From Deltaproteobacteria bacterium GWC2_55_46 (GTDB lineage: Bacteria; Desulfobacterota; GWC2-55-46): DNA of 64,000 bases. Under the pieces are notes generated by a model, which made no database searches, was not told the DNA's origin, and worked only from the letters and a program-made list of their open reading frames with translations. Position numbers and translations under genes: made by a program. Positions 29,204-46,252 of this stretch are shown here, one piece after another. How positions within the stretch are numbered: position 1 is the first letter of the stretch; the number at the start of each line of letters is the position of its first letter. The DNA lies in assembly GCA_001595385.3 (NCBI GenBank), contig LVEI03000001.1, forward strand, positions 558,001 to 622,000, in the 5' to 3' direction.

Positions 29204-31981
29204 TTAGCCTACCGCCTTCTCCTTCATTATCTTGGGCGTTATGAATATAAGGAGCTCTGTCTGAGAGTCTGTCGTCGATTTGCTCTTGAAGAGCCATCCG
29301 AGCACCGGGATATCCTTGAGGTAAGGTATGCCCTTGTCGGTATCGTTCCTGTCGGTTATGACTATGCCGCCGATGACCGTTGTCTCGCCGTCTTTTACCA
29401 GCACGTCGGTCGTAGCCTCTTTCTTGTTTATAGAGGGCTGTCCGCCTGACGTCCTGAACGTGCCTATCGAGTTCCTCGACGCCTTTATGTTCATGAGCAC
29501 GCTGCCGTCGGGCGTGATGTGCGGGGTGACGGTGAGGCTCAAGTTGGCGTCAACGAAGGTCGTGGCGGTGCCTGAGGCCGAGGTCGTCTCAAACGGGATC
29601 GACTCGCCCTGCTCTATCTTTGCTTCCTTGTTGTCAAGGGTGGTGACCCTCGGCCTTGATATGGTCTTAAGCTGTCCCTGCGATTCACCAGCCGAGATCC
29701 TGAGATCCAGGATCAACGGGTCGCCCAGCCTGCCGAATATGAAGCCGAGAGCTCCAAGAGTCCCGGCGGTACCGGTAGCCGGAAGGTTAACGGCGTAGTT
29801 GGTAACGCCTGTATTCCCTGAAAAATCCTGCTTCTGGGCTGGGTAAGCCACTGTGTCGCCATCGAAGGTCGCTGTCTGCGTACTGGGGTCGGCCCCGAAC
29901 TGGCCGACCTGCGGGGACGAACCAAAGATATTGGTGTGTGTATTGCTGCCGGTCTTGAAGTCCGCGCCCCACTGTATGCCGAGGTCGCGAGCGAAGCTCG
30001 ATGACGCCTCGACTATCCTGGCTTCTATAAGGACCTGCGGTATCGAGGTATCGAGCTTTGTTATCACGTTCCTGGCCGACTCGATCCCCTTCCTGATGTC
30101 CTGCACTATAAGGGTATTGGTGCGCTTATCTGTCGTGACCTGCCCCCTGTCGGAGAGGACGCTCTTTACCTGTTTTACGAGGTCTTCGGCGACGGCGTAG
30201 TTGATGGCCACGAACTCGATATCCATCTCCTCGAGCTTCTCTTCGGCCTTCTTGGAGGCAAGGAAGGCCTCGCGCTCCTGCCTTATCTTTATCGCCGGGG
30301 CGACCCTTATGACGTTGCCGAGCTGGACGCTGTCGAGGTCCTTCGTCTTCATGATGATATCGAAGGCCTGGTCCCAGGGCACGTTCTTGAGCCTTAACGA
30401 TATAGTCCCCTTCACGTCATCAGAGGCTATGATGTTCATGTTGCTTATCTCAGCCAGGAGGCGCAGGACGTCGGCTATATTGGCGTCCATCATGTCGAGG
30501 TCGACCTTCTTGCCGGTATACTGCTTTTCGGGCACGGCAGCGGCGTCTTCCGCGGTTATGACCTTATCTTCCCCGGCCGCCACCATGGCTTCCTGAACAG
30601 GCTGCGAGAAGTCTATGACGAGCGCGTTGCCGGCTTCCTGCACGCTGTACCGGGCCTTCTCCTTGAGCTTGATGAGCACCCTTACAGAGCTGGGGCTCAC
30701 GGAGTCCTGGTACGAGCTTACGCTTACGACCGTTGTACCGAGCTTTGAGGCATCGAGCGTCCTTACAAGCTCGTCAGGGATGGTCGCCCCCTTTATATCG
30801 AGGGCTATGGTCTTGCCGTCCTTGCCTTCCCTTACCCGGTACTCGGTCTTGGCTGAAGTCGTGATGGTAAGCCTGCCCTTGTCGGCGACCTTCTTGTAAT
30901 CTATCGCCTCTACCGCGGCCTCCTTCACGATGGCTTCTGCGGCAACAGGGGCCTCTATGACCATTGGTTGCGCCGTTTCCACCGGCTTTACCTCAGGGGA
31001 AGCCGCCCGTACCGGCGTCGGCGCTGCAGCCTTGACGCCGGGGCCGATGGTGACGACGATAGCGTCATTCTCGACGCTTATCGCGTGCGGGGGGAGCGTC
31101 TTACCGGCCGCGTCAAAGACAAGGCGCGTCTTGTCGGCGTAGCTCCCTATCCTTACGCCCTTTACGAACTTATCCTCAAGCTTCTTCAAGTCCTTCCCGG
31201 TGGAATTGGTGACGCCCCAGATATCTACCACGATCCTTGCCGGCTTTGAGAGCGCGAAGGATGTGTTGTTGCCGGCCACCCCGTCCGTTAAGACCTTTAT
31301 TACCGTGTTCCCGTCCTCTGTGGCCGATTCTATCGCGGTTACCTTTGAGGCCTGCTTCGCGCTCTTCCCAGCCGGTTCTTCTTTTACCTGCGCCGGAGCC
31401 GACGTCTCACTGGAGACCGCCTCCTTTGCGGGTACACTCTCTTCGGCAAGAGGCACCTCGGTTACGGCCTCGCTCGACGCCATGAGAACAGAGCCTGGCT
31501 CGCTACCGGCCGTATCGGCGGATTTTTTAAGGCTTACGAGTATGCTGTTCTCGCCTGACTTGACCTCGTGGTCTACCCCTTCCTTGAGGCCTATCGTTAT
31601 CCTGCCTATATCCTTGTTCTCGCCATATGCGGCAGTTGATATCTCACCGAGAAAATCATTGCCCACGGCAAGGCTCGGGGCGATCTTACCGAGGTCTACT
31701 CCTGGCATATCTACAATGAGCCTTGACGGGTCTGAGAGCTTGAAGACCGTGTACCTTACGGTCCCCGTAGTCCCTATGAGCACCCTGTCGCCCTCGCCGA
31801 CGACGTTTATATACTCAACGGAAAGCTTCGCTTCTTCGCCTGGAGAAGCCGCGCCGGCCTCCTCGCCAGGGCCTGCCTGTATATCCTTGGGACCTGTAGA
31901 AGCGCAACCTGAGAAGGTAAGCGCGCCTCCGAGCACGATACCGAAGAGGGCCTGCCTCAACCGAACTTCTCTCAAACTCAT
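29204..31981 (-). CDS. pilQ: Type IV pilus secretin PilQ
   Basis: A 925-residue secretin. The N-terminus has a lipoprotein-like signal ending TFSGC (C26). AMIN domains follow (about 45-130, 205-290 and 360-450), e.g. YTVFKLSDPSRLIVDMPGV. Then secretin/TonB short N-terminal domain (KKVDLDMMDANIADVLRLLAEIS, about 490-545), NolW-like domain, and the secretin pore (about 640-920) with VPVLGWLFKS near the end. It forms the outer-membrane channel for the pilus fibre. GGAGG with a 5-nt spacer precedes the ATG. Last gene of pilMNOPQ, followed by a strong terminator. Confidence 0.96.
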   Translation of the reverse strand: MSLREVRLRQALFGIVLGGALTFSGCASTGPKDIQAGPGEEAGAASPGEEAKLSVEYINVVGEGDRVLIGTTGTVRYTVFKLSDPSRLIVDMPGVDLGKIAPSLAVGNDFLGEISTAAYGENKDIGRITIGLKEGVDHEVKSGENSILVSLKKSADTAGSEPGSVLMASSEAVTEVPLAEESVPAKEAVSSETSAPAQVKEEPAGKSAKQASKVTAIESATEDGNTVIKVLTDGVAGNNTSFALSKPARIVVDIWGVTNSTGKDLKKLEDKFVKGVRIGSYADKTRLVFDAAGKTLPPHAISVENDAIVVTIGPGVKAAAPTPVRAASPEVKPVETAQPMVIEAPVAAEAIVKEAAVEAIDYKKVADKGRLTITTSAKTEYRVREGKDGKTIALDIKGATIPDELVRTLDASKLGTTVVSVSSYQDSVSPSSVRVLIKLKEKARYSVQEAGNALVIDFSQPVQEAMVAAGEDKVITAEDAAAVPEKQYTGKKVDLDMMDANIADVLRLLAEISNMNIIASDDVKGTISLRLKNVPWDQAFDIIMKTKDLDSVQLGNVIRVAPAIKIRQEREAFLASKKAEEKLEEMDIEFVAINYAVAEDLVKQVKSVLSDRGQVTTDKRTNTLIVQDIRKGIESARNVITKLDTSIPQVLIEARIVEASSSFARDLGIQWGADFKTGSNTHTNIFGSSPQVGQFGADPSTQTATFDGDTVAYPAQKQDFSGNTGVTNYAVNLPATGTAGTLGALGFIFGRLGDPLILDLRISAGESQGQLKTISRPRVTTLDNKEAKIEQGESIPFETTSASGTATTFVDANLSLTVTPHITPDGSVLMNIKASRNSIGTFRTSGGQPSINKKEATTDVLVKDGETTVIGGIVITDRNDTDKGIPYLKDIPVLGWLFKSKSTTDSQTELLIFITPKIMKEKAVG

Positions 31982-32029
31982 AAAGACCTCCGTAAACTAC
32001 TGCCCTTGGCGGCTATATTGGTCCCACAC

Positions 32030-32545
32030 CTACTTCTGCTTTTCAAGTAAACCGAGTTCCATCTCTTCGCTGGATTTCACCTTGCCATCTTCATCCCTTA
32101 TCGTCTCGCGCACCACGACGCTTCTCGGGGTGAGCTTCACGACCTTGCCTTCCCTTGTGCCGAGGACGTCCCCGCGCCTTATGACGTACCTCTTGCCGTC
32201 CGGCGCCTGTATGAGGGCAAAGCCGGAGTCCTCTCCGACCCCGACCACGACCGCTACGAGCTTGAAGGCGCTAAGCTCGCAGCACTCGAGCGGCCCCTTT
32301 ATCTTCTTGGCCCCCTCAACGCCCCTCATTACCACGAGGTGGCTCTGGAACGGGTTCCTGAGCCTGAGTTCGTCCCCTTCTTTATGCTCCTCGGCCTTCG
32401 GGGCGAGCTGTTCTTCGGGGGCGGCCTTCTTCTGCACGGCGGGTCTTTTTACCTGGACCTGATCCGTCTCCTCCGCCTTGTTGCAAGAGGCGGCAACGAA
32501 CGGAAGCATGGCCAGCACGATGATCGTAATGATGGTCCTTGCCAT
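32030..32545 (-). CDS. pilP: Type IV pilus assembly lipoprotein PilP
   Basis: A 171-residue lipoprotein. Signal peptide with lipobox AASC (Cys20), then a Lys/Pro/Glu-rich linker (about 25-60) and a PilP beta-domain (about 65-165; LRNPFQSHLV, RYVIRRGDVLG). PilP bridges inner-membrane PilNO to the secretin PilQ. Its ATG overlaps the pilO stop by one base (TAATG). Confidence 0.93.
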   Translation of the reverse strand: MARTIITIIVLAMLPFVAASCNKAEETDQVQVKRPAVQKKAAPEEQLAPKAEEHKEGDELRLRNPFQSHLVVMRGVEGAKKIKGPLECCELSAFKLVAVVVGVGEDSGFALIQAPDGKRYVIRRGDVLGTREGKVVKLTPRSVVVRETIRDEDGKVKSSEEMELGLLEKQK

Positions 32546-33177
32546 TACTTCTTCTTCGCTCCCTTCTTCTCCCCTTCCTTCTGCGCCCCTTCTTCACCGG
32601 CCGGTATGAACCTGAACGTGGTAGCCACGAAGTCAGCCTTCAATACCGGCACACGGTTCCTGTGGCCGAGGGATTTAATGTCCAGGTTCCCGAGGTTCAC
32701 TATCCTGGGCAGGCCGCCTATCTTTACGCTGAACTCGTAGAGGCTCTCGTACCTGCCCTCGACGGTCATCTTGACCGGGACCTCCGCGTAAAAGCCCTTC
32801 GCTATTTCCTTGCCGGGCTTGAAGATCTGTATCTTCAGGCCGGATTTTTCGCCAGAGCTGCTTATTGCGTCTATAAGGTCCGGTATCTCCTTCTCGTTCG
32901 GGAGCTGGGCGACAGCCGCGGCAAGCCTGGCCTCCATCTCTTCTTTCTCCCTTATGTACTTCGGGATGTCGGCGGCTATCTGCCTGTTCTCGTTGAGCTT
33001 CACGGTAAGCTCCTGAAGCTGCTGATCGAGCTCCTTCACCTCAACGTACTTGGGGCCTATGAGGAACCAGTACAGGATGCCGACAAGGGCGACGTTCACA
33101 GCTACGGCTATCGTTATCCTCTTCGAGAGGGGGAGCTTAAGTACGGAGTCCAGGTTTATCTTCAGGGAAAGTGCCAT
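32545..33177 (-). CDS. pilO: Type IV pilus inner-membrane protein PilO
   Basis: A 210-residue PilO. One transmembrane helix near the N-terminus (RITIAVAVNVALVGILYWFL, 20-39), a coiled-coil region (about 48-95), and a ferredoxin-like periplasmic domain (about 105-195) with EVPVKMTVEGRYESLYEF. It pairs with PilN in the alignment complex. One-base overlaps both sides (pilN and pilP). The last ~15 residues are Lys/Gly-rich. Confidence 0.93.
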   Translation of the reverse strand: MALSLKINLDSVLKLPLSKRITIAVAVNVALVGILYWFLIGPKYVEVKELDQQLQELTVKLNENRQIAADIPKYIREKEEMEARLAAAVAQLPNEKEIPDLIDAISSSGEKSGLKIQIFKPGKEIAKGFYAEVPVKMTVEGRYESLYEFSVKIGGLPRIVNLGNLDIKSLGHRNRVPVLKADFVATTFRFIPAGEEGAQKEGEKKGAKKK

Positions 33178-33737
33178 TACTTTGTCTCCCTGGCCGGTTT
33201 TTGCTTCTCAAGCCTGATGATGAAGTTCACCACCTCGGCCCCAGCCTCCTTCTCAACGACCCTCTGGGCGACGTCGAGCTCTACCGTCCCCATGTTGGTC
33301 TTCTGAAGCCCCCTCATGAACTCGGCTACCACCTCGTCGTCAGAGGCATAGCCCTCTATCGTTATCTGGAAGCTTTCATCCTTGAGGCTCTTCATCCAGG
33401 CCTTCTGGGGAATCGCCTCGCTTATGTTCTTAAGAAGCTTCACCGGGCCGGTCCTGCCGGTCTCGAGCTGGGTTATTATCCTGAGCTTCTCCTCAACTAT
33501 CCTCTTCTGCTCTTTTATCCTGGAGAGCTCGCCTATCTTCATCTTGAGGTCGGTTAGCTCCTGGTTCCCGGCCGCTATCTGCCCGTTGAGGCTACTGGCC
33601 TCGCTCCCTACGACAAGGTAGGAGGCTATCGACACGGCCGCCACCAGAAATGTGGCCAATCCGGCTACCGTGAGCTGGAACCTTATCGACTCTTTCTTCT
33701 TGGCCGCCCTTACCGGCAGCAGGTTTATGCGTATCAT
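33177..33737 (-). CDS. pilN: Type IV pilus inner-membrane protein PilN
   Basis: A 186-residue PilN. It begins MIRINLLPVR, whose INLLP motif binds the cytoplasmic groove of PilM. Transmembrane helix about 23-45, coiled coil 50-90, then a ferredoxin-like domain. It overlaps pilM by 4 bp and pilO by 1 bp. Confidence 0.95.
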   Translation of the reverse strand: MIRINLLPVRAAKKKESIRFQLTVAGLATFLVAAVSIASYLVVGSEASSLNGQIAAGNQELTDLKMKIGELSRIKEQKRIVEEKLRIITQLETGRTGPVKLLKNISEAIPQKAWMKSLKDESFQITIEGYASDDEVVAEFMRGLQKTNMGTVELDVAQRVVEKEAGAEVVNFIIRLEKQKPARETK

Positions 33738-34801
33738 CTGTCGGCGAACCTCCTTGTGGCAAGGCCGACCGCGACGCCGAAGAAAGGCGCCGCCTCCTTG
33801 AGCCTCTCGCGGTCGAACTGCTTGGAGCTGGCCTCGATGCTCTTGAAGGGGTTCACGACCTCCACCGGTATCGAGGTCTTGTCCTGCATCAGGTTTTGCA
33901 GCCCAGCCACCTTCGACCCGCCGCCGGAGAGGTATATCTTGCTGACGTACGAGCCCTGCGCGCCGCCCAGGAAGAAATCAAGGGACCTCTTGACCTCGAA
34001 GGTGAGGTTGGTGGATACCGACCCGACGGAGGAGGCAAGCTCGGAAGATTCCTGCTCGGAGGCCGCTTTCCTTCCGGTCTTCAGGTCCTCCGCGTCCCTG
34101 AAGCTAACGCTCAATTGCCTCTGTATCTCCTCGGTGAACTGGTTGCCTCCCATGGGTATGGACCGGGTGAATATGGTGAGGCCCCCGAGTATCACGCTGA
34201 TGCTTGTTATGCTGGCGCCGATATTGACCATGGCGATGTTCTCACCAGGGGCTATCGGGTAGTTTATCTCCATCATGTTCTCAAGGGCGAAGGAATCGAC
34301 GTCTATGACGACGGGGTTGAGCCCCGCCTCCTTTATGACGTTGGTGTAGTCGTTTATGACGTCCTTCTTGACGGCCACGAGCATCACGTCCATCTGCCCC
34401 CTGCCCTCGGAGTCGGCCCCGAGTATCTGGAAGTCGATGTTTACGTCCGAGATGGGGAACGGGATATACTGCTCAGCCTCCCACTGGATGGAGTCGGCCA
34501 GCTCATCCTCGGTCATCGCCGGGAAGCTGACCTTCTTGATAATGACGGAATGGCCTGTGAGGGAGGATACGGCGTCCTTCACCTTTACGCCGTGTTCCTT
34601 TACAAGGTCCCTCAAGGTGTTCGTGACGGTCATCGAGTCGATGATGGACCCGTCCACTATCGCCTCCGGCGGGAGCTCGGCCATGCCCATCTTGATGAGT
34701 TCCCAGCCCTTCTTGGCCCGGTTCATCTGCACAAGCTTGATGGAGTTGGAGCCGATATCGAAGGCCACCGCGTCCTTCTTCCTCGTAAACGAAAAATTCA
34801 T
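33734..34801 (-). CDS. pilM: Type IV pilus actin-like ATPase PilM
   Basis: A 355-residue PilM of the actin/FtsA fold. N-terminal phosphate-binding strand AVAFDIGSNSIKLVQM (10-25), TGHSVIIKKVSFPAM, the central DVDSFALEN, and the C-terminal ATP-binding ILYLSGGGSKVAGL-type motif (KIYLSGGGSKVAGLQNLM, about 292). It assembles on the cytoplasmic side and docks PilN. First structural gene, 10 bp after a small HTH gene. Confidence 0.95.
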   Translation of the reverse strand: MNFSFTRKKDAVAFDIGSNSIKLVQMNRAKKGWELIKMGMAELPPEAIVDGSIIDSMTVTNTLRDLVKEHGVKVKDAVSSLTGHSVIIKKVSFPAMTEDELADSIQWEAEQYIPFPISDVNIDFQILGADSEGRGQMDVMLVAVKKDVINDYTNVIKEAGLNPVVIDVDSFALENMMEINYPIAPGENIAMVNIGASITSISVILGGLTIFTRSIPMGGNQFTEEIQRQLSVSFRDAEDLKTGRKAASEQESSELASSVGSVSTNLTFEVKRSLDFFLGGAQGSYVSKIYLSGGGSKVAGLQNLMQDKTSIPVEVVNPFKSIEASSKQFDRERLKEAAPFFGVAVGLATRRFADR

Positions 34802-35123: not shown

Positions 35124-35275
35124 CTGATTTCTTTTAATTGACCTATAATTAAATATAATATCGGAGCAAAGGGACAGGGCTTTAGCTTTTTCTAATTTCC
35201 TTTTTCGCGACAGTGGGTTACCTGGGTGAGCGAGCCTGTTCCCTATAGCAGATTATTGAAAAACACAGTTTTGTT

Positions 35276-35406
35276 CAGGCTGCTTGAAAAACCATATGCG
35301 AGGCCCTATTGAAATGGGGAGCGAGGAAGAAAGGCGTACTTCTTTGGTACGCCGTAGTAGAAGCCTCTGAAGCCAACTACGCGGATGGATATTTTAGAGC
35401 AGCCTG
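35276..35406 (-). repeat. Dispersed palindromic repeat A, copy 3 (abuts pilX stop)
   Basis: A 131 bp element, CAGGCTGCTTGAAAAACC at the left, CATATGCGAGGC block, central GGCGTACTTC/GGTACGCC dyad, and AGAGCAGCCTG at the right. It ends at 35406; the pilX TAG occupies 35407-35409. On the coding strand GTAG directly precedes the repeat. Confidence 0.85.
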
Positions 35407-36696
35407 CTACAGCCTCTTCCACAGGATTATCGACGAAGTGCTGTTCTCCTTGGCGACGTCCTCAAGGGTTGCCTGGTCGTATGAGACCGTTATATTGCCG
35501 TTTATCGAGACGGTATTGTCCGCCATTATGCCGCCTGTGACGTTCAGCTCGCTGCCGCCGCCTGAAAGGGTGAGCGTGCCGAATACGTATATCAGCCCCT
35601 CATAGGTGAGGCTCCCGCTGAGCTTGAGATCGCCGGTGACGACAAGTATGCCGCGCCCGGTGAAGTCGCCGGATATCTCGGCCTCCTTGCCTCCGGAGTT
35701 GTCTATGTAGATCATGGTCGAATAGGTGTCCCCGGCCGCGTCGCCCCAGTCCTGGACAACGGTGTCTATCTTGCCGCTCGCCGGCATATCGTCACCCGAA
35801 GCGCTGCATGTGGCGTTCTTGCACTGATGCTTCTCGCTTGCGAAGTCTATTATCTTGGATATATCCTCGCCCAGGTATGTGGTCATGTCGTCGTTTGCCT
35901 TGGCGGCGCAGCCGGCGAGGGTGTCGTCGCAGGTAGTGCAGCCGCCGCCGCCTGCCTCCTTGACGCCTCCGGTTATATTAGATGCGCCTCCGGATATGGA
36001 GATGCACGAGTTGGTATTGATGGCCCCTTCGGTATCGGTATTCAGGTTGCTTGAGCCCACATAGGCGACGACAGTCCTGGTCGTGCCGTTGGATGTGCCT
36101 ACAGATGTCACCTCGTATACCGGGAGCTTGCCGTAGCTTATGTATGTGGCGGTGTCGGCGAGCTTGAAGTCCCTGCCGTACATGACTATCTCGACAGGGC
36201 TGGCGTTGCAGGTCCAGGATGCAGGTGAGGTAGAGGCGTTCCCTGAATTGTTTGGCCCTGCGCCATTGCTGTCGCAGAAGCCTTCGGGGTTCGTCTCGTC
36301 GAGGTAGCTGATAGTCACGGCATAGTTAAGGTTATCGGCGCTATTCCTGTCGCCTCCCACGTCGACGCCGAAGTCCTTTGAGCCGTCCGAGTTCCATGTG
36401 GTCGTCCGGTATCCGGCATCCCCTGTGAGCTCCCCTACGTGCCTGGCGTTCCCTGTCGGCAGATGGAGCCTCGACATCGTCTCGTTTATCCCAGCCTCCG
36501 CCAGCTGAAAGGCGGTCTTGGCGTCGCGCTCGTTACGCGAGAGCTGAACGTCGGTGGTCATGTTCATCACCAGGCTGAGGCCTATTATGGTCATCGCCAT
36601 CATGGTGACGAGCGCGAGTATAAGGATAAAGCCACGCTCGTCCCCCGCCGTCCCCTTAAGGGTAGATCTCCTGTCAGTTCGTCTCATTCCACTCAT
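35407..36696 (-). CDS. pilX: PilX-like minor pilus assembly protein
   Basis: A 429-residue PilX_N family protein. N-terminal membrane segment after a basic start (ERGFILILALVTMMAMTIIGLSLVMN, about 20-45), then the PilX signature SRNERDAKTAFQLAEAGINE. A cysteine-rich region (about 240-300) holds CISISGG, GGGGCTTCDDTLAGC and CKNATC. The C-terminus (about 330-415) repeats short beta-strand units such as GILVVTGDLKLSGSLTYEG, resembling polymer-forming beta-solenoid segments. PilX-type proteins help initiate the pilus. It overlaps pilW by 23 bp; its stop abuts repeat A. Confidence 0.85.
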   Translation of the reverse strand: MSGMRRTDRRSTLKGTAGDERGFILILALVTMMAMTIIGLSLVMNMTTDVQLSRNERDAKTAFQLAEAGINETMSRLHLPTGNARHVGELTGDAGYRTTTWNSDGSKDFGVDVGGDRNSADNLNYAVTISYLDETNPEGFCDSNGAGPNNSGNASTSPASWTCNASPVEIVMYGRDFKLADTATYISYGKLPVYEVTSVGTSNGTTRTVVAYVGSSNLNTDTEGAINTNSCISISGGASNITGGVKEAGGGGCTTCDDTLAGCAAKANDDMTTYLGEDISKIIDFASEKHQCKNATCSASGDDMPASGKIDTVVQDWGDAAGDTYSTMIYIDNSGGKEAEISGDFTGRGILVVTGDLKLSGSLTYEGLIYVFGTLTLSGGGSELNVTGGIMADNTVSINGNITVSYDQATLEDVAKENSTSSIILWKRL

Positions 36697-39600
36697 TTGA
36701 ATACCCGCTCTCTTCCGGCGTCCCGCAGGTGTCGTAGGCCGTAAGCTTGAAGTAGTATATCCTCTGGTTCAGGTTGCCCTGGTCACCCTCGACAATAACT
36801 GAGGTAGAACCCGAGTCCGCCGTAGTACGCAGGAACCAGTCGGCGACTATGTCGCTCCCGGTGCAGTTGGGTTTGTTCTTGGCGCAGACCTTCTCGTAGA
36901 CCCGGTAGCCGGCAAGGTCCGTTATCGCCGAGTTGTCGGTATTCTGCGTTACAGCCGTCCATGAAAGTGTCACATTCTGCCCTGTGACAGAGCCGCTTAA
37001 GCCCGTAGGGGCCTTCGGGGTATTGGTGCACGGGTCTACCACAACGCTTATGGTCTTGGTCGTCGGCGAGGCGTAAGGATAATAGACCGAGATGGTGTCA
37101 GTCGTAAGCGTCAGGAGCTTGCCGCTATCGGTCACGTCGCTGGTCGTAGTGATGGTCTTGTTGAAGGTGCCTGTGGCCGCGCCGGTCTCGGTTATGGTCG
37201 GGGCGTACTCGTCCGGAGCGAGGCTCGTTGTCTTGAACCCGGTAAAGCCTGCCGTGGTGTTTATGGTCTCTATCGTCGTTCCGTAGGTATACGGGGCGTC
37301 GTTCCTCATGGCGAGACAGTCGACTATCGTCACATCGAAGCTGTCGCCCCTGTATATCGAGGTCGGGCTCACGGAAAGGGTCGCCTGGCTGGTACTGCCA
37401 ACGCAGGTGGCGGCGGTATTGGAGGCGCTGCTCAAGCGCTCCTCGGTCGAGCACGAATTAAGCGCCTTTACCGTATAGCTGTATACGCCCGTGGCAACGG
37501 TATCGGTATAGGTAAGGCCGGCCTGGTCGCTCCCTTGCTGAGTCCCATTCCTGAATATCCTGTAGGTTATGCTGTCAGAAGCGTCGATAGAGGCGCCGGA
37601 GGTGTAGGTTGTAACGGCATCCCATGACAGAAGAGCGGATGCCGCGCCGCCCGTGGAGGTGAGGTTCGCAGGCGCGCTCGGCGTCACGTCGCAGACGTCA
37701 AAGTCCATCTGGTCGTAGACATAGGCCCCGTAGTCAATCTCCGGGTCCCGGTCCCAGTTGCCGTCGTTGTCGACCGCGACGATATAGTACCAGACGCGGT
37801 AGCCGTCGCTGGCGGGGATGTCCGCGCTCCAGATGTTGCCGCCGGTGTTCGTCATGGCTACGGCAGTATATCCGGAGGCCGGCGCCGTGGTCGTCGTCTT
37901 GACGGTTGTCTTGTAGTAAAGGGTAGCCGAAGAGACAGCCACCTTTGAGCCGGTGCTCGCGTCGGTGGTGTTGCCTGCTATGCTGGCCGATACCGTGACG
38001 GTAGCGCCTGAATCGACCACGACTTCCCCGTCCGACCCGGATGGTACTGTGTTAAGGCCGGTAGAGCCTGGCACGGCGTACCCGAAGGTCGGGCTCGAAG
38101 GCTTGTTCTGCTGCGTGGCCGTGATACTCGGGCCGAAGGGCACGGATATGCCTTCGGAACTTAACGAGACGGTCAGGTAAGATACGCAGGAAGATACGCC
38201 GGTAGAGTCGTTGGTCACCTGGAGCGTTATGAGGAGTTGGTCGTCCCGCATATCGACATAGCTATCGCTTGCGTCCTTGAAGGTGAAGGTCATGGGCACG
38301 TACCTTGCTCCCGCTGGCACAGTCGATGAGGCAAGGGAGGCGTTCGAGACCACTCTCGTGTAAGGCGAGCTGCCGCCGGAGGCCGTAAGACCAGCGGCAA
38401 GGCTCGTGGTAATCGTACCCATGCCGCTCCTGCCTCCGCCTATCTTTATCTCCCTTAAGTAGGCCGAGGAGTTCACCCAGTATACGGTCGCTCCGGTTAT
38501 GGTCATGGTGCCGGAGCTGGTGTTGTTGAGGAACATGGTGACGGTATTGTGCCTTTGCGCCGATGTTACAGAGCTAGACCCGTTGCCAGAGCCGGTGGAG
38601 CTGTCGATATCGACCCCGGTGAGCACGGCCCTGTGGTCGTCCTTCGTGCAGCCCCCGGCGCCAGGGCACTTCTCGTCCCTTATGATGCTCCCGGGCATTA
38701 CAGGGCCGAGGAGAACCGAGTTGAGGTAGCCGGAGATCATGTTGGCCCGTATGGTAGCTTCAGACGGGTTCATCTTCTCATATGGGCAGTCGGTCGTAAC
38801 GATACGGTAGTAATATGTCGTGCCCTCCGAGGCTGTGGTGTCGTTAAAGGACGATCCCCAGTAGGGGGCCACGCCGGAGATCATGGTCGATGCCGAGAAA
38901 TCCGCGCTCGTCGACCTGAATATCCTGTAGCCGGCGAGGTCGAACGGGTTATCCGGGGTAGAGCCCAATGGGTTGCTCGTATCGCTCGGCACCTGGGTCC
39001 ATGCAAGTGACACTGGTGTTGAGCAGCAGGAGACGCTCGCGCTGGTTACGGCCGGCGGCTTCTCGCCTGAGGGCGGATCCTCGTCGCAAAGTATCGTCGT
39101 ATCCTGCGCGCCGGTAGGGGCTGACCCTCTTGAGCACAGGTTAAAGGCCACAGCCCTGTAAGAGTAAGTGCCGGTATCGGCGAGCGCAGGCGGGCCAGGG
39201 TTCTCAAGTGTCATCGAATCGTGCCAAAATGAGGTCGACTGCGACCTTTGCAGCTCTGCTACCGTAAATACGCCGCCAGAGTCGGGGATGAGCCTCGCGT
39301 CCGGCGTCATCGATGTATTTACCTGATAGCAGCCTGAAGCGAGCGGGTAAGTATCCGTGTCGGTCAAAAGCTCAGGGTACGTCGCGCTTTCGTTGACGTA
39401 AACGCATGTATGGCTTACCTCCGGCTCATCCGGCGGAGGCGACACCGGCGGCTGAGTAAGGGAGACCGCGACCCTCTTCCATCCGGCGTTAGCGGAAATT
39501 GACGGGGCCGACGGAGCGGTTGAGTCATTGGGGGCTGTATCAGAGCCGGTTACAGAGGCAAAGCCGGTTCCGGCGGAGCAGGCTGTGGAGCCATCGCCGC

Positions 39601-41065
39601 AGGTGGCGTCGTAATCGTCCTGGACGTACTTCTCCTCGTCGGAATCGCCGCCGGAATCGGATATAAGGGTCGTGTCGCACTTGACCGGGGCGATGGCGTA
39701 ATAATACGTCTGGCAGCCGGTAAGGCCGGTATCGGTAAAGCTCGTGGCTGTCTGGCTCAATATAGTTGGTTTGCCGCTTCCAGTCTCTCCGGCTATCCAC
39801 TCGACCTCAGTCTGGGTCGCCGGGTCGAGCGGGTAATCGGAGAAGGGGCTCTCTGACCTGTAGACCCTGAAGCCAATTACGTCCGGGTTGTTAGTTGTGT
39901 CATAGGCTGTCCAGCTAATGGCCACCTGACCGTCCGAGGAGCCGTTTGCGCCGGAAAACCCTGTTACCGCGGAGGGCTTGACGGGGTTGAGGGTCGAATC
40001 ATCTGAGCCAGCGTCGAAAACAGAGTTGCTCCCTGCCGGGTTGCCGTAGACCTCGGAGGAAAAATCGCTGTGGTTGAGGGAATTGTCATATGCCTTTACA
40101 GCAACGTAATATGTAGTGGTAGAGCTTCCATCGGAAGGCGAATAGGATAGCGTCGGAAGACCAGGCGCCATCGTGCACTCATAGTCCGAGCCCGTATCCG
40201 AACAGGTATAGTTACTCCCGGAAAGGATGGTCGTCGGTACGTTCACGACGCCCTCATAGCTTCCGGACGAGACGCCGTAATATATCTTGTAGCCCAGGAC
40301 GTCGCCCTCGGCGTTCTTTGTCCATTTCACCTTGAGCCTGCCGCAAAGCCCCGGGTCCCTCACCTGGATGCCCGTCGGGCCGGCTGGCGCATCGCTGTCA
40401 TTGGCGACCTGCCCGAGTCCGATGTTACGAAGCCTTATGTGTGTTTCAAGCGTAAAGGTCGCCGGCGCTCCGGTGCTCCCTATATTCGACTTTGTACGCG
40501 TCACCATGTTGACGGTCACGAACTTTACGCTGTTCCGGTCTGGCTGAGTCGACGTATCGGCGATCTCTGCGCCGTCGAGGTCGTAATAGGTAAATGTTAT
40601 GCTGTTCACGTACGGGGCCACCTGCTCGGTAGAGCCTGTCGTCGCGTCACTTAAGTTGTCGGTCTTTTTTACGAGGTACTGGACGCCGCCGGTGGTCTGC
40701 AGCCAGTACTTGACCTTGAGCCTTTTCCCGGCGGTGAGGCTTAAAGAGGTGTCGGTCTCAGGGTCCGTGTATATGAACTCGATCAGGCTTGAGGTGGCGT
40801 CGGTTATGACGTCCGCGGTACCGGCGGCATATCCGGCGTTCATCAATTCCCTTTCGAGCATGTTAAGAGAGACCCTCGCGTTCTGCTGTGCCTCTACCTT
40901 CAGGTCTTCGATCTGCGACTGCTTGAAGAAGGTAGTGTAAAGGGAGTAGATGGCCAGGGAAACGACCGAGGTTATCACTATCGCTATGAGGACCTCGACC
41001 AGCGTAAAACCCCTTTCGCGGAACCGTCCGGGCCTTGTTATGAGTGACATGCAATTGTGGGCCAT
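36674..41065 (-). CDS. pilW: Giant PilW-like minor pilin fused to multiple fibronectin type III domains
   Basis: One uninterrupted frame of 1463 residues. The N-terminus is a classic prepilin: RERG^FTLVEVLIAIVIT with cleavage expected after G19 and Glu5 of the mature form at E24. A PilW-like pilin head extends to about residue 220. Then about six fibronectin III-like domains follow (roughly 225-345, 365-475, 520-670, 680-790, 1160-1245, 1370-1460) with recurring GYKIYYG / GFRVYRS / GYRIFRS / YYYRIV strands, plus an extra beta-rich segment (795-1155) and paired cysteines. Normal PilW is about 300-400 residues. It is expected at the pilus tip, exposed outside. AAAGG precedes the ATG by 8 nt. 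Lies between pilV (4 bp) and pilX. Confidence 0.88.
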   Translation of the reverse strand: MAHNCMSLITRPGRFRERGFTLVEVLIAIVITSVVSLAIYSLYTTFFKQSQIEDLKVEAQQNARVSLNMLERELMNAGYAAGTADVITDATSSLIEFIYTDPETDTSLSLTAGKRLKVKYWLQTTGGVQYLVKKTDNLSDATTGSTEQVAPYVNSITFTYYDLDGAEIADTSTQPDRNSVKFVTVNMVTRTKSNIGSTGAPATFTLETHIRLRNIGLGQVANDSDAPAGPTGIQVRDPGLCGRLKVKWTKNAEGDVLGYKIYYGVSSGSYEGVVNVPTTILSGSNYTCSDTGSDYECTMAPGLPTLSYSPSDGSSTTTYYVAVKAYDNSLNHSDFSSEVYGNPAGSNSVFDAGSDDSTLNPVKPSAVTGFSGANGSSDGQVAISWTAYDTTNNPDVIGFRVYRSESPFSDYPLDPATQTEVEWIAGETGSGKPTILSQTATSFTDTGLTGCQTYYYAIAPVKCDTTLISDSGGDSDEEKYVQDDYDATCGDGSTACSAGTGFASVTGSDTAPNDSTAPSAPSISANAGWKRVAVSLTQPPVSPPPDEPEVSHTCVYVNESATYPELLTDTDTYPLASGCYQVNTSMTPDARLIPDSGGVFTVAELQRSQSTSFWHDSMTLENPGPPALADTGTYSYRAVAFNLCSRGSAPTGAQDTTILCDEDPPSGEKPPAVTSASVSCCSTPVSLAWTQVPSDTSNPLGSTPDNPFDLAGYRIFRSTSADFSASTMISGVAPYWGSSFNDTTASEGTTYYYRIVTTDCPYEKMNPSEATIRANMISGYLNSVLLGPVMPGSIIRDEKCPGAGGCTKDDHRAVLTGVDIDSSTGSGNGSSSVTSAQRHNTVTMFLNNTSSGTMTITGATVYWVNSSAYLREIKIGGGRSGMGTITTSLAAGLTASGGSSPYTRVVSNASLASSTVPAGARYVPMTFTFKDASDSYVDMRDDQLLITLQVTNDSTGVSSCVSYLTVSLSSEGISVPFGPSITATQQNKPSSPTFGYAVPGSTGLNTVPSGSDGEVVVDSGATVTVSASIAGNTTDASTGSKVAVSSATLYYKTTVKTTTTAPASGYTAVAMTNTGGNIWSADIPASDGYRVWYYIVAVDNDGNWDRDPEIDYGAYVYDQMDFDVCDVTPSAPANLTSTGGAASALLSWDAVTTYTSGASIDASDSITYRIFRNGTQQGSDQAGLTYTDTVATGVYSYTVKALNSCSTEERLSSASNTAATCVGSTSQATLSVSPTSIYRGDSFDVTIVDCLAMRNDAPYTYGTTIETINTTAGFTGFKTTSLAPDEYAPTITETGAATGTFNKTITTTSDVTDSGKLLTLTTDTISVYYPYASPTTKTISVVVDPCTNTPKAPTGLSGSVTGQNVTLSWTAVTQNTDNSAITDLAGYRVYEKVCAKNKPNCTGSDIVADWFLRTTADSGSTSVIVEGDQGNLNQRIYYFKLTAYDTCGTPEESGYSNEWNETN

Positions 41066-41069
41066 CGTC

Positions 41070-41564
41070 TTAACCTTTCGTCCTCATGGTTGCTAAGGTG
41101 ACGCTCTTGGTGGCGTGCCAGAGCGCGTCTGTCCATGAAACCGTGACATCTATCCTTTTCAGCCCGTCAAGGGTGGGGTTGGCGACCCCGTTTCCGCTGA
41201 GATCGATATATGTGACCGTATACGACCAGGTGAAGCTCTTGTTGCCTGAGGTGAGTGTGGCGTCTACCGGCGTGCATGAGTATACGGGCCTGCTGACGGA
41301 AGCGCTCGTCTGCGTGCAGTTCCTCCTCAAGTCCGCCCTTGGCGCGGTCGTATCAGTGACCTGGATATTGTTGTAATCGACGCTAAGAAGAGCCTCGAGC
41401 TTTTCCTGCGAGAGATTATTGGCGAGAGACATCGACTGGCTGTAGCCGGAGTTCTTCGCGGCGGTCCCAGCGAGCCCGGCTATCCCCAGTATGCCTATGG
41501 AAAGGATGGTCATGGCTATAACGACCTCTATCAGGGTGAAACCGTCTTCAGTACGCCATCTCAT
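41070..41564 (-). CDS. pilV: PilV-like minor pilin
   Basis: A 164-residue prepilin. Leader MRWRTEDG, cleavage at G8, then FTLIEVVIAMTILSIGILGIAGL with mature Glu5. The rest fits PilV/GspI: AAKNSGYSQSMSLANNLSQEKLEALLS then a beta-rich C-terminus with cysteines. Processed by PilD and expected to prime the fibre with FimT, PilW and PilX. Five bases separate its TAA from pilW. Confidence 0.9.
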   Translation of the reverse strand: MRWRTEDGFTLIEVVIAMTILSIGILGIAGLAGTAAKNSGYSQSMSLANNLSQEKLEALLSVDYNNIQVTDTTAPRADLRRNCTQTSASVSRPVYSCTPVDATLTSGNKSFTWSYTVTYIDLSGNGVANPTLDGLKRIDVTVSWTDALWHATKSVTLATMRTKG

Positions 41565-41567
41565 GAC

Positions 41568-42026
41568 TTAGCACCCCTGGGAAACGGTTATCATGCCCGT
41601 TGTCCCTGTCACGTTTATCTGCATCCTGTCGTCAGACTTCTGGGTATTATTGACGCATATAGTAGTGGCGGTAGCGGCCCCGTTCGTGTAGAACTGCACG
41701 GAGAAAGTATCGCCCGGCGAGGTTATATCTATCCCTGCGCCCAGCTCTCCCTGCCCCCTCGTTGGGTAATCGACCCAGGCGCCGCCGCTATAGATCCAGA
41801 GGTTATAGGTGCCGCCGGAGAAGTCCACCCGGAAGGAGGTGTTCTGGGCTATGGCCTTGAGGCGCGCGGCGTTGAGCTCGGTGGCTACGTCCCTCACGGT
41901 CCTTGTAAGCCTCAAGTGGGACAACTGGGAGATGATGGAGGGCGCGGCGATGGCCATTAAGATGGTGGCCAGGGCTATGACTATTATGAGTTCGACGAGT
42001 GAAAAGCCTTTTGAACGTCCAGACAT
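41568..42026 (-). CDS. fimT: FimT/GspH-like minor pilin
   Basis: A 152-residue prepilin. From the ATG at 42024-42026 the leader is MSGRSKG, followed by FSLVELIIVIALATILMAIAAPS with Glu5. GspH/FimT signature LRLTRTVRDVATELNAARLKAIAQN, and a C-terminal ICVNNTQ...QGC with a likely disulfide. A GTG seven codons upstream is in frame, but AAGGG with a 9-nt spacer favours the chosen ATG. First gene of the minor-pilin operon behind a sigma-54 promoter. Confidence 0.9.
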   Translation of the reverse strand: MSGRSKGFSLVELIIVIALATILMAIAAPSIISQLSHLRLTRTVRDVATELNAARLKAIAQNTSFRVDFSGGTYNLWIYSGGAWVDYPTRGQGELGAGIDITSPGDTFSVQFYTNGAATATTICVNNTQKSDDRMQINVTGTTGMITVSQGC

Positions 42027-42039
42027 ATACGCCATCCCT

Positions 42040-42057
42040 TCAGACACTTCTGTCTGA
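42040..42057 (-). other. 5' stem-loop of the fimT leader
   Basis: TCAGACA-CTTC-TGTCTGA, a perfect 7 bp stem placed right at the expected transcription start of the sigma-54 promoter and just upstream of the fimT Shine-Dalgarno (CCCTTC on the plus strand, 42036). It could stabilise the mRNA 5' end or tune translation. Confidence 0.45.
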
Positions 42058-42067
42058 GGTGATTAAA

Positions 42068-42083
42068 AGCAAATGCCATGCCA
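42068..42083 (-). promoter_or_regulatory. Sigma-54 promoter of the fimT-pilV-pilW-pilX operon
   Basis: Minus strand TGGCATGGCATTTGCT: consensus TGGCAC-N5-TTGCW with the invariant GG (-24) and GC (-12) at the exact 10 bp spacing and a single mismatch (T for C). Expected start near 42057, 31 nt before fimT. The NtrC-type regulator gene ends 65 bp upstream. Confidence 0.8.
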
Positions 42084-42148: not shown

Positions 42149-43483
42149 TCATAGTCCGTAACTTTTTATCTTATAAAGAAGGGCCCTGTGGCTTATCTCA
42201 AGGAGGGCGGCGGCCTTTGTCCTGTTATTATGGGTCTTCTCGAGGGCCTTCATTATAAGCTCCCTCTCGGTCGATTCATGCGCCTTTTTTATAGAGAGGC
42301 CCTGCGCCTCTGCCGGGCGAGGGCCGGAAAGTATCGGGAGAGATCCCTTGCCTATCGTCCCGGCCTCTTCGAGTATCATCGCGCGCTCTATGACGTTCTC
42401 AAGCTCCCGTATGTTGCCGGGCCATGGATACGAGGTAAGGGCATCCATAGCCTCTTTTGAGATCTTCTTGCAGCCTTTACCGAACCTGGCCGAGTACTTC
42501 CCCACAAAATACTCGGCGAGGGCCGGTATATCCCCGGCACGCTCCCGCAGAGGAGGAAGCTTTATCTCTATCACGTTAAGCCTGTAGAAGAGGTCGTCCC
42601 TGAACGTACCCTTGTTTACCTCAGCCCTCAGGTCTTTGATAGTAGCCGCCACTACCCTGGTATCTACCTTGCCGGGCTTGTTGTCCCCTACCCTCCTGAC
42701 CTCCCCCTCCTGCAATACCCGAAGGAGCTTTACCTGCAGCTCGAGCGGCAGCTCTCCGGCCTCGTCCAGGAAGATGGTCCCTCCGTCCGCCTCCTGGAAA
42801 AGCCCGGTCTTGTTCCTGTGCGCGTCAGTGAACGCGCCCTTCACATGGCCGAAGAGCTCGCTTTCAAGGAGCGGGCCGGGTATCGCGCCGCAGTTGACGA
42901 CCACGAAGGGACTCGATGCCCTGCTTCCGCAGTAATGTATCGCGCGGGCCACAAGCTCCTTGCCAGTGCCGCTCTCGCCGGTTATAAGGACGGAGGTTGA
43001 ATAATCAGAGACCTTTTTCACAAGCTCAAGGATAGCGAGCATCCCGGCGTCAGAGGTGCGTATCCTTGAAATATCGTACTCCCTGGCCGCCTCTTCCCTG
43101 AGCCTCAGGTTCTCCTTCCTGAGCCTCTCCCTCTCCTCGGCCTTTTTAACAGTCAGTATTATCTCGTCGGCCTTGAAGGGCTTTGATATGAAGTCGTACG
43201 CGCCGAGCTTCATGCACTCTATCGCCGTATCCATCGTGCCGTAGGCGCTCATCATGATAACGGTCTTTGACGCGCCCCTTTCCTTAAGGGCCTTCAGGAA
43301 GGCTACCCCGTCCATGCCGGGCATCCTGATATCCGACAGAATGAAATCAAAGTACTCGTTCTCAAGGCACTCAAGCGCCTTGGCGGCATCCGCAAACGAT
43401 ACCGTCTCGTAGCCCTCTTTCCTGAGGATGACCGAGAGCATATGCCGCATCGACTCTTCGTCGTCTATTATCAATATCCTCAC
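42149..43483 (-). CDS. pilR: Sigma-54-dependent response regulator PilR-like
   Basis: A 444-residue NtrC-family activator. Receiver (1-120) with Asp in LSDIRMPG; AAA+ domain (about 140-375) with Walker A GESGTGKELVARAIH, sigma-54 contact loop GAFTDA, Walker B GGTIFLDEAGELP, arginine finger region YRLNVIEIKLPPLRERAGDI; C-terminal Fis HTH ending KAAALLEISHRALLYKIKSYGL. The contact loop is GAFTDA rather than GAFTGA. GTG start overlapping pilS by 4 bp (GTGA). Probably activates the sigma-54 promoter just downstream. Confidence 0.92.
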   Translation of the reverse strand: MRILIIDDEESMRHMLSVILRKEGYETVSFADAAKALECLENEYFDFILSDIRMPGMDGVAFLKALKERGASKTVIMMSAYGTMDTAIECMKLGAYDFISKPFKADEIILTVKKAEERERLRKENLRLREEAAREYDISRIRTSDAGMLAILELVKKVSDYSTSVLITGESGTGKELVARAIHYCGSRASSPFVVVNCGAIPGPLLESELFGHVKGAFTDAHRNKTGLFQEADGGTIFLDEAGELPLELQVKLLRVLQEGEVRRVGDNKPGKVDTRVVAATIKDLRAEVNKGTFRDDLFYRLNVIEIKLPPLRERAGDIPALAEYFVGKYSARFGKGCKKISKEAMDALTSYPWPGNIRELENVIERAMILEEAGTIGKGSLPILSGPRPAEAQGLSIKKAHESTERELIMKALEKTHNNRTKAAALLEISHRALLYKIKSYGL

Positions 43484-44994
43484 TGCTGCCTCCCTGCGGG
43501 AAGGGCCACGGTGAAGACAGAGCCTTCCGCGGATGTCCTGAAGGTTATCTCCCCGCCGTATGCCTTGATTATGGACTGGGAGACGAAGAGCCCGAGGCCC
43601 GTCCCCCTGCCAGCCTCTTTGGTGGTGAAGAACGGGTCGAATATGCGCTTGGCGTGCTCTTCGGCTATTCCATCGCCTGAGTCAAGAAAAGATACGCAGA
43701 CGTAGTCCCTTTCAGCCGCCTCGCCCGGAAGCGGAGGGTCGTCCTTGCGCCTTCGTACAAGCGGCGTAAATGGCCTCTTTTCGATCCCGGTCGATATCTC
43801 GATCGACTTGACATCTTGGCCCTCCATCGAATGAGCCGCGTTTATAAGGAGGTTTACGAATACCTGCCTCAATTTGCCCTCGTCAGCCATGACCTCCAGC
43901 GGGGCTTCCCTCATGCCGAGCTTTACCTCGACCGCCTTGAAATCCTCACGCAGCGACAGCTCCGAGAGAGTCTCATTCAGGAGCGAGTTCACGTCTACAG
44001 GCGAAAGGGCGGCCTTCGTAGGCCTGGCCACCCCCAGAAACTCCCTTACTATGGTATCGATCCTCGCGACCTCCTTCGAGGCCCCCTCGATTATCTCCGT
44101 TTTCTCCGCTGGCTCAAGCCCGCCTCTGCCCAGCAGATCGACGTAACCGCGGAGCGCCCCAAGAGGGTTTCCGATCTCGTGGGCTATACCCGCGGCGAGC
44201 CTCCCCACAGCGGCAAGGGTCGAGGAGCGAAGAAGCTCATCCTGCGCCGTCACAAGGTCCAGGTTCACGCGCTCAAGGCTCCTTATCTCTTCTTCAAGCC
44301 TCTCAGCCATGCTGTTGAAGGATGACGCGAGGCTCCCAAGCTCGTTGTCGATATCGACCCTGGCGCGCTCATAGAGCTTGCCCCCGGCTATCCGGGTAGC
44401 CGCCTCCTCGAGCCGCTTAAGAGGGCTTACAACAGAACGGGAGAGGAAGAGGATGCCAACGCCGATTATTATGGCGGAATCGAGGAGGGCATAGAAGAAT
44501 AGAAACCTTCTGGCCCCGGAAAGCTCTGAGCTTATATCGTGAAGGTCGAGGAGAAGCTCGAGCGTGCCTTGCCCCTTGCCCTGCCATTCCATCGGGGCAA
44601 AGATACGGAGCGACTCTCCAGCGCCCTTGAACCAGCCGCCGCCGTATACATAGGCCTCTATGCCGTCATCCGCGGCGAAAAGAGCGCCTCTGTCCACGGG
44701 AAGGGCGCCTTCCGTAACAGCGATCCTGCCGTCCGGGCCGGTGAGCCTGAAGGCCGATATCCCGGCCTCCCTCAAGACAGCGGCCGTAAGGGCCGCCGCC
44801 TTTCCTTCGTCCTCGATCCTGAAAGAGGCGCGGACGATCCTGACCATATCCCCGGCCTGGCTCGCCTTCCAGAAAAGGGCACTTCTCTCCACTATCTTGA
44901 CGCTCAGAAGGCCTATGAGCCCGATGCCCGCCAGCGTCATAATGACAATGGCGGATGTGAGCTGGAACCTGATCCCCAGTCTCTTTTTTCTCAT
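43480..44994 (-). CDS. pilS: Sensor histidine kinase PilS-like
   Basis: A 504-residue membrane kinase. Start taken at the ATG 44992-44994, one base after the pilD stop; a TTG eight codons upstream is in frame. First TM about 8-31 (LTSAIVIMTLAGIGLIGLLSV), periplasmic region to about 165, second TM about 168-185 (FLFFYALLDSAIIIGVGILFL), HAMP (RSVVSPLKRLEEAATRI), HisKA with phospho-accepting His in AHEIGNPLGALRG, HATPase with NLLINAAHSM, DSGDGI and GRGTGLGLFV. It should phosphorylate the adjacent PilR-like regulator. Unlike classical PilS it has two rather than six TM helices. Confidence 0.9.
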   Translation of the reverse strand: MRKKRLGIRFQLTSAIVIMTLAGIGLIGLLSVKIVERSALFWKASQAGDMVRIVRASFRIEDEGKAAALTAAVLREAGISAFRLTGPDGRIAVTEGALPVDRGALFAADDGIEAYVYGGGWFKGAGESLRIFAPMEWQGKGQGTLELLLDLHDISSELSGARRFLFFYALLDSAIIIGVGILFLSRSVVSPLKRLEEAATRIAGGKLYERARVDIDNELGSLASSFNSMAERLEEEIRSLERVNLDLVTAQDELLRSSTLAAVGRLAAGIAHEIGNPLGALRGYVDLLGRGGLEPAEKTEIIEGASKEVARIDTIVREFLGVARPTKAALSPVDVNSLLNETLSELSLREDFKAVEVKLGMREAPLEVMADEGKLRQVFVNLLINAAHSMEGQDVKSIEISTGIEKRPFTPLVRRRKDDPPLPGEAAERDYVCVSFLDSGDGIAEEHAKRIFDPFFTTKEAGRGTGLGLFVSQSIIKAYGGEITFRTSAEGSVFTVALPAGRQQ

Positions 44995-44995
44995 C

Positions 44996-45775
44996 CTAAA
45001 CGCCCGTTGCCCGCGCAATGTACCAGGTTATGATCCAATCGCCGAAAAAGAGGTGTACCGCTGCCCCGAGGGCAAGGAACGGCCCGAAGGGGATAGCGTA
45101 CCTGCCGCCCTTGCCAAAGGCGAGCATCAATATGACGCCTATGACAGCGCCAATGAAGGAGCCGAAAAGAAGCGTCACGATCACGCCCTTCCAGCCGAGG
45201 AAGGCGCCTATCATGGCAAGAAGCTTTACATCCCCTCCGCCCATGCCCTCATGGCCTGTAGCCATGTAATATCCCCAGGCCACCAGGAAGAGTATCCCGC
45301 CGCCGGCTATGGCGCCTATGAATGAGTTGAGGACCCCTGGGTAAGGGAGAAAAAACGAGGCCACAAGCCCAATTGCCACGCCCGGCAGGCTTATGACATC
45401 CGGTATTATCTTAAGGTCGAGGTCGATGAAGGTGATGACGATGAGGGCGCAAATAAATACGAAGTAGACGATGGCCTCAACGGAGAGCCCGAACCGTAAG
45501 ACGGTAAAGAGGCCGAAAAGGCCGGTAGCGGCCTCGACGACAGGATACCTTAAAGAGAACGGCTCGCCGCATGAAGAGCACCTGCCGCGCAATATGATAT
45601 AGCTTAGAACGGGGATATTAAAATAAAAGGGGATGCGCCTGGAGCAGTTCGGACAGCTTGAAGGAGGGGAAACGACCGAGAGCCCAAGGGGGACCCTGTA
45701 TATGCAGACGTTGAGGAAACTGCCGATTATGGCCCCAAAAACGAAGGGCAGGATCAATATGAAGTCTTCGGACAT
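44996..45775 (-). CDS. pilD: Prepilin peptidase PilD
   Basis: A 259-residue bifunctional prepilin peptidase/N-methyltransferase. Two CxxC pairs in the cytoplasmic loop (CPNCSRRIP and CSSCGEP, about 41-72), then multiple TM helices with the aspartyl catalytic motifs DLDLKIIPDVISLPG (first Asp) and GGGDVKLLA (GxGD). It cleaves the leader of FimT, PilV and PilW-type prepilins after Gly and methylates the new N-terminus. It is directly followed by pilS (1 bp). Confidence 0.96.
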   Translation of the reverse strand: MSEDFILILPFVFGAIIGSFLNVCIYRVPLGLSVVSPPSSCPNCSRRIPFYFNIPVLSYIILRGRCSSCGEPFSLRYPVVEAATGLFGLFTVLRFGLSVEAIVYFVFICALIVITFIDLDLKIIPDVISLPGVAIGLVASFFLPYPGVLNSFIGAIAGGGILFLVAWGYYMATGHEGMGGGDVKLLAMIGAFLGWKGVIVTLLFGSFIGAVIGVILMLAFGKGGRYAIPFGPFLALGAAVHLFFGDWIITWYIARATGV

Positions 45776-45829: not shown

Positions 45830-46252
45830 TCAAAGGCTCTCCGGAAGATAGTCCTTTCTCTTCTTCTCGACTATGGCGATGATATCGGCCGCCTGCCTTA
45901 TCGCCTCGACCGATTCCTTCTGGGAGATGACCTCTGCGGGCACGCCCCCGGGGATGGCGTCAGGGAAACGGGATGTCTTGTAATACAGGTCCAGGCTCCT
46001 TCCGGAGCCGACAAAACCCCTGAACTCCTCCTCGTAGGTTATCGCCCTGTCGAGGAGGTCCACCACAGAACGGGTCTCCCTTACATCCTCCTTATTGAGG
46101 AAGAGAAAGGCCCTGAGCGCTTTCGCGGCAGCCTGCTGCGCCCAGAAGGTGGCCTGCGCGTGAAAGCCGCCCTGCTGGTTCCACTCGGCGCCCCTCAAGT
46201 CGTACTCAGCCTGCCTGAGCCATCTTTCAGACTCCTTTAGGAAAGGGTCCAT
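45830..46252 (-). CDS. HEPN-domain protein
   Basis: A 140-residue all-helical HEPN protein: RWLRQAEYDLRGAEWN (helix 1), FHAQATFWAQQAAAKALRAFLF (helix 2) and the helix-3 region where the active RNases carry Rx4-6H. Here that region reads VRETRSVVDLL with Arg in place of the usual His. The C-terminus YYKTSRFPDAIPGGVPAE is the common HEPN tail. HEPN proteins are usually toxins or RNases paired with an MNT nucleotidyltransferase; no MNT gene is adjacent. GGAGG with a 4-nt spacer precedes the ATG. It lies 9 bp after argJ and 54 bp before pilD. Confidence 0.85.
   Translation of the reverse strand: MDPFLKESERWLRQAEYDLRGAEWNQQGGFHAQATFWAQQAAAKALRAFLFLNKEDVRETRSVVDLLDRAITYEEEFRGFVGSGRSLDLYYKTSRFPDAIPGGVPAEVISQKESVEAIRQAADIIAIVEKKRKDYLPESL

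Follow-up and report, generated by a model that had tools for sequence, protein, structure and literature searches.

The window, by which we mean the whole 64 kb stretch of DNA analysed here, carries a type IV pilus locus in which a minor pilin in the PilW position bears, behind its pilin domain, an array of nine beta-sandwich modules, and in which there is no pilY1 gene. In relatives, the minor-pilin cassette that holds this gene occupies the very site where other genomes hold a pilY1 cassette, behind the same sigma-54-like site. We consider it likely that this modular PilW belongs to a PilY1-free tip cassette that can be traded as a unit, behind one promoter, for a tip set with PilY1, and that its array serves as the tip adhesin.

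Around pilW, the genes follow the order pilD, pilS, pilR, then fimT, pilV, pilW and pilX, then pilM to pilQ (Table 1). The sigma-54-like site between pilR and fimT is one of just two such matches in the 64 kb, both strands included. Between argJ and pilD lies a 140 aa gene (45830-46252), which stands at the same place in many relatives and whose sequence reads like that of a HEPN-type protein. Relatives of the locus in named records come from uncultured Deltaproteobacteria, largely from groundwater.

Table 1. Features of the pilus locus (positions in the window; strand given as + or -, with. for unstranded).
Feature	Position	Strand	Basis
pilM, pilN, pilO, pilP, pilQ: downstream assembly machine	29204..34801	-	PilM and PilQ by Pfam; N, O and P from gene order and size
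Exchanged cassette: unrelated to the DNA of G005, which has a pilY1 cassette at this site	35169..42064	.	BLASTN
PilX, 429 aa: PilX_N plus a region of ~300 aa reading like a beta-solenoid; its frame shares 23 bases with the end of pilW	35407..36696	-	ORF, Pfam, alignment
Long modular PilW: leader 1-19, pilin domain ~20-215, then nine modules	36674..41065	-	ORF, Pfam, AlphaFold, hhalign
PilW distal modules, residues 1122-1463: FN3 D7 (1122-1222), unrelated D8 (1222-1342), FN3 D9 (1340-1463)	36677..37702	-	conservation; hhalign
PilW central non-FN3 beta-sandwich modules, residues 778-1122; best-conserved part of the array in distant homologues	37700..38734	-	conservation; hhalign
PilW proximal modules, residues 222-775: FN3 D1 (222-350), FN3 D2 (356-470), probable FN3 D3 (516-664), FN3 D4 (664-775)	38741..40402	-	hhalign; Foldseek; D4 against 3mpc
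PilW residues 1-215, with the class III signal and the pilin domain: a helix (22-75), then beta sheet	40421..41065	-	AlphaFold; N_methyl
PilV	41070..41564	-	TIGR02523, 46.3 bits, below the cut-off of 52.2
FimT/FimU-type (GspH) minor pilin	41568..42047	-	PF12019
Sigma-54 (-24/-12) promoter-like site TGGCATGGCATTTGCT, 10/11 positions, common to A and B cassettes	42068..42083	-	motif match
PilR, sigma-54 response regulator	42149..43483	-	Pfam
PilS-type sensor kinase	43480..45018	-	Pfam
PilD prepilin peptidase (A24)	44996..45775	-	Pfam

The pilW frame runs unbroken on the minus strand from 41065 to 36674 and encodes 1463 residues. Its leader, MAHNCMSLITRPGRFRERG, is followed by FTLVEVLIAIV, with cleavage after G19 and a glutamate at +5, and the Pfam profile N_methyl (PF07963) matches with 34.3 bits (cut-off 21.2). 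An earlier note on this DNA, which had read the N-terminus as that of a prepilin with a class III signal, is borne out by both. The same note made the protein four times as long as an ordinary PilW; it is indeed much longer, but the factor is about five, the PilW of the sister cassette having 300 aa. It also named, as a possible refutation, that the frame might be two genes joined by a sequencing error. We found no point in favour of such a join, or of an unusual recent fusion, and full-length homologues, mostly single open frames, occur at 64-74% identity in nine genomes and at 37-62% in more distant ones. These homologues exclude a joined-frame artefact, and we give this explanation practically no weight. 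In genome G001 (L111) the long PilW is clearly broken (1284 + 91 aa, with the interruption after about residue 1236); the genes adjoining it look frameshifted too, this genome also has an ectopic PilY1 cassette, and an assembly error is a possible cause of the interruption.

The window protein matches no profile at equivalog level, its best NCBIfam equivalogs scoring far below their cut-offs (PRK10557, 34.6 of 120; gspJ, 23.1 of 64.85), and its gene has pilV and pilX as neighbours in an operon of the order fimT-pilV-pilW-pilX. ‘PilW’ is therefore used here as a name for the position and the pilin module. AlphaFold predicts the pilin domain with good confidence, as a long alpha-1 helix (residues 22-75) and a beta sheet reaching to residue 211, and the chain of beta-sandwiches behind it with moderate confidence; for the predictions as a whole, confidence is only moderate (mean pLDDT 66.6 and 61.7, 9 sequences). 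Besides the class III signal, the protein thus shows two further marks of a modular type IV pilin, this pilin fold and an extra module that is not specific to type IV pili, here the array.

After the pilin domain (about residues 22-215), the nine modules comprise five of the fibronectin type III kind (FN3, the usual name of IPR003961), one probable FN3 and three of other kinds. In profile-profile comparisons with hhalign, D1, D2, D4, D7 and D9 form one family (mostly 76-98% probability, one pair at ~28%), D3 is a probable sixth member (up to 65%), and the segments 778-985, 985-1122 and 1222-1342 are unrelated to it. The ‘about six FN3 domains’ counted in the earlier note therefore stand. The note's FN3 assignment fared less evenly in Pfam: the window protein has no fn3 hit (PF00041) at the gathering score, only Ig_RIMBP2 at 23.2 of 27, but fn3 lies above its cut-off in three homologues (64.0 bits in G075, 28.9 in G040 and 28.0 in G046), and the predicted structure has FN3-type folds. 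A Foldseek search of the AlphaFold model against the PDB matched the arrays of gp130, fibronectin (1fnf, E 1.6e-11), contactin, titin/thick-filament proteins and the leptin receptor. A profile search of PDB sequences, which yielded weak matches only, paired D4 with the Fn3-like chain 3mpc (E 0.009). Overall TM-scores were low because such chains of modules are flexible, and the Foldseek matches therefore indicate the kind of module and not a common arrangement. The relation to fibronectin type III is thus carried by the fn3 matches of the homologues, by the fold and by the module-to-module comparison.

Among close relatives, conservation over most of the array equals or exceeds that of the pilin domain (mostly 64-74% versus 58%), and the window protein shares all 25 of the cysteines behind its leader with the five sequences nearest to it. 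Across distant homologues, identity is highest in the module at 986-1120 (48%) and lowest in the last two modules (15-19%); from the alignment, this contrast suggests turnover at the outer end of the array. An integrin-type claim drawn from an RGD triplet near residue 1240 was dropped, the triplet being absent from the alignment consensus.

The earlier note saw no PilY1 gene in the cluster, and this extends to the whole genome of the window (G000; 100% complete, 3 contigs), where the PF05567 search found no C-terminal beta-propeller of PilY1. Likewise, when 11 PilY1s from the family and the order were combined into a profile, it gave nothing at E<=1 in G000, with a relative that has PilY1, G005, as a positive control at E=0. 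On both searches we rejected a hidden PilY1, and with it another possible refutation that the note had named, a co-regulated pilY1 gene elsewhere. PF05567 had no match in a control panel of 14 genomes, and relatives did match. The same genome contains a second type IV filament system (C1:282600-295000, locus L175), which has PilM, PilO and secretin-like genes of its own. There, the gene behind a PilX-like one, in a place often taken by pilY1, encodes a protein of 856 aa (L175:4888-7458) that has a bacterial Ig-like domain (Big_1).

In the relatives compared, MAGs among them, the main locus has constant outer genes, secA-argJ-pilD-pilS-pilR on one side and pilMNOPQ on the other, and between them an inner block of one of two types. 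Type A, as in the window, consists of fimT, pilV, a long pilW (1073-1895 aa) and pilX (about 400-560 aa), without pilY1. Type B consists of pilV, pilW (about 300 aa), pilX (about 150-220 aa), pilY1 (about 1070 aa), a gene for an Ig-like protein and fimT, or, in a variant, has fimT first and a PilY1 of 940-1860 aa. In the class, 24 genomes were counted with a long PilW and 17 with a pilY1 cassette next to pilR and/or pilM, and no cassette has both. The Ig-like protein, of ~300 aa (L125:11270-12298 and equivalents), is possibly a lipoprotein and travels with pilY1 in most B cassettes, which makes it a candidate for an unrecognised PilY1 partner. In G020, a B cassette is linked to pilR and pilM on two contigs (L147 and L148), reflecting either two strains binned together or a duplication.

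The exchange can be followed to its junctions. G005, which belongs to the window's own genus, has type B at the main locus. Compared with G002, which has type A, it shows 89-90% identity across pilR and for 118 bp beyond the pilR stop, and again from 400 bp before pilM; between these junctions lie 7.06 kb (B, G005) and 6.74 kb (A, G002) of essentially unrelated DNA. Since the two loci differ almost only in the tip cassette, they amount to a natural swap experiment with a defined cassette pair. In the BLASTN comparison with the window, the identity of G005 is 74% as far down as 42065, a point that lies three bases beyond the sigma-54-like site; the next 6.9 kb are unrelated, and from 35168 down the identity is 81%. 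All 17 main loci tested had the sigma-54-like site, with matches at 9-11 of its 11 positions, and in 15 of these loci, A and B alike, it lies 63-67 bp after pilR. In a tree of PilM and PilN, G005 is nested among type A genomes, and there are about 8 switches of cassette type, no fewer than 6 of which are forced by well-supported branches (for a few genomes the type was read from pilX or the Ig-like gene next to pilM alone, and for G027 from a separate contig; G055, with a short PilW, was counted as A). One kind of pilus tip thus appears to have been swapped for another on the same machine in the course of evolution. We rejected a recent copy of the ectopic cassette of G002 as the origin of B in G005, the cassettes being just 80% identical against 89-90% for the backbone. 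In the PilY1 comparison, the PilY1 of G005 nevertheless groups with ectopic copies of the same genus, and the B set is therefore old in the group and changes place.

At the level of whole genomes the separation is weaker. Long PilW and PilY1 never share a cassette, but six genomes that are at least 90% complete combine type A at the main locus with a B cassette at another site, in several cases next to a divergent pilR of its own. Among class genomes at least 90% complete, 6 have both, 14 long PilW only, 15 PilY1 only and 10 neither, a tendency towards exclusion that is not significant (Fisher p=0.07), partly because B cassettes also occur ectopically.

The earlier note had inferred that the FN3 array replaces PilY1. 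Such a one-for-one substitution by the array alone could draw on the shared site, on the absence of PilY1 from every A cassette and on a similar added mass (about 1240 aa, versus 1070 aa for PilY1). However, homologous A-like cassettes with a PilW of only 184-245 aa and a PilX of ~400 aa, also without PilY1, occur outside the class in other families, and inside the class the A cassette of G055 (L157) has a PilW of 260 aa that lacks the array. PF05567 was not found in the genomes G055, G071, G078, G116, G219 and G378; in G177, which has an A-like cassette with a short PilW, it is present elsewhere in the genome. Absence of PilY1 is therefore independent of the array and belongs to the cassette, within which the array was most simply added to PilW. 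Furthermore, long forms are almost confined to one class (the window's, plus two genomes of family f26), and freedom from PilY1 is therefore the wider trait. Thus the missing PilY1 and the shared site support the note, but the exchanged unit is the whole minor-pilin cassette, on which the FN3 array is a graft, and we regard substitution by the array alone as unlikely. The short-PilW cassette of G055 is either an ancestral form or a secondary loss, and is a natural array-free control.

From this arrangement we infer how PilW is processed, reaches the tip and acts there, and what PilX contributes. PilD would process the prepilin, expressed with its cassette from a PilR-controlled sigma-54 promoter. 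The pilin module would take the PilW place in a FimT-PilV-PilW-PilX priming and tip complex, prime assembly through PilMNOPQ and then be carried to the pilus tip. From there the fused, cysteine-rich array of ~1240 residues, with six FN3-like and three other beta-sandwich modules, would extend and bind a surface, matrix or neighbouring cell. The C-terminal region of the large PilX, beta-solenoid-like by alignment, would close the tip, probably filling PilY1's end position on PilX, a capping step that we propose from homology and position. For the adhesive role our model is S. sanguinis PilB and other modular pilins (PMC8179133), and on that analogy a tip adhesin is what the array most likely is; PilW may instead sit in the pilus shaft, and the FN3 modules may be spacers and not binding modules. 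As G000 has A alone and G005 B alone, each set appears to be sufficient, much as a single cluster is enough in M. xanthus (PMC7541494).

The emphasis could also be placed on PilX, with its C-terminal region of ~300 aa as the functional end cap that replaces PilY1, and the PilW array as a variable stalk or shield that matters less. PilX has about 400 aa or more in all readable A cassettes, whether PilW is short or long, as opposed to about 150-220 aa in B, and PilY1 binds PilX, which holds it by strand complementation in models (PMC13190605). Against a secondary role, the strong conservation of the array relative to the pilin domain and the retention of all its cysteines argue for a constrained function, and this alternative is thus possible but, in our judgement, doubtful.

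It is considerably less plausible that the cassette builds a secretion pseudopilus or DNA-uptake filament and not an adhesive pilus. The T2SS minor-pilin profiles GspJ, GspI and GspH do match weakly, and ComZ of Thermus, which likewise has a beta-solenoid, probably binds DNA (PMC8179133). However, the cassette is embedded with pilD-pilS-pilR and with pilMNOPQ, including an AMIN-type PilQ, and it exchanges with a PilY1 cassette, a hallmark of type IVa pili; we consider this possibility very unlikely. An adhesive, PilY1-free tip cassette remains our preferred reading.

In known type IVa systems, PilY1 and the minor pilins prime pilus assembly and stay at the tip, and in M. xanthus minor-pilin/PilY1 cluster 1 or 3 alone suffices (PMC7541494). 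Our findings bear on whether PilY1 is indispensable for type IVa priming or one of several exchangeable tip parts. They raise the possibility, put forward tentatively and with somewhat less than even confidence, that diderm type IVa pili run on either of two non-homologous, exchangeable tips, one based on PilY1 and one made of modular pilins only (FN3-PilW and a large PilX), behind one sigma-54 promoter; PilY1 would then not be obligatory for priming, even where close relatives carry it as their sole tip set.

The cassette resembles the FimU-PilV-PilW-PilX set with a PilY1/PilC tip adhesin (P. aeruginosa; M. xanthus, PMC7541494) in its minor pilins, in its genomic site and promoter in sister genomes and presumably in its tip position, but it lacks the PilY1 beta-propeller and has its large extracellular part covalently in PilW. 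In Acinetobacter baumannii (comB-pilX-comC, PMC10374093), a pilW-pilX-pilY1 cassette has likewise been replaced as a block at least twice; there, however, one PilY1-containing version replaces another, whereas here the alternatives are a cassette with PilY1 and one without it. The KilLMN/TadG tip complexes of Tad pili (PMC12075869) similarly use alternative minor-pilin sets with modular domains to customise the tip, but belong to a different filament family. In the open-access literature searched, we found no report of alternation between a PilY1 cassette and an FN3-armed cassette that lacks PilY1. Modular type IV pilins such as S. sanguinis PilB and PilC share the N-terminal class III signal and a pilin module with a grafted non-pilus module; they present adhesive modules, and IPR003961 is among their 15 commonest architectures (PMC8179133). 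The window's PilW differs in its 1463 aa and nine modules, the extreme of that survey having 860 aa and 12 copies of one motif, and in its PilW position in a four-pilin cassette. Modular pilins are thus already known, and what is new is the clean exchange with a PilY1 tip.
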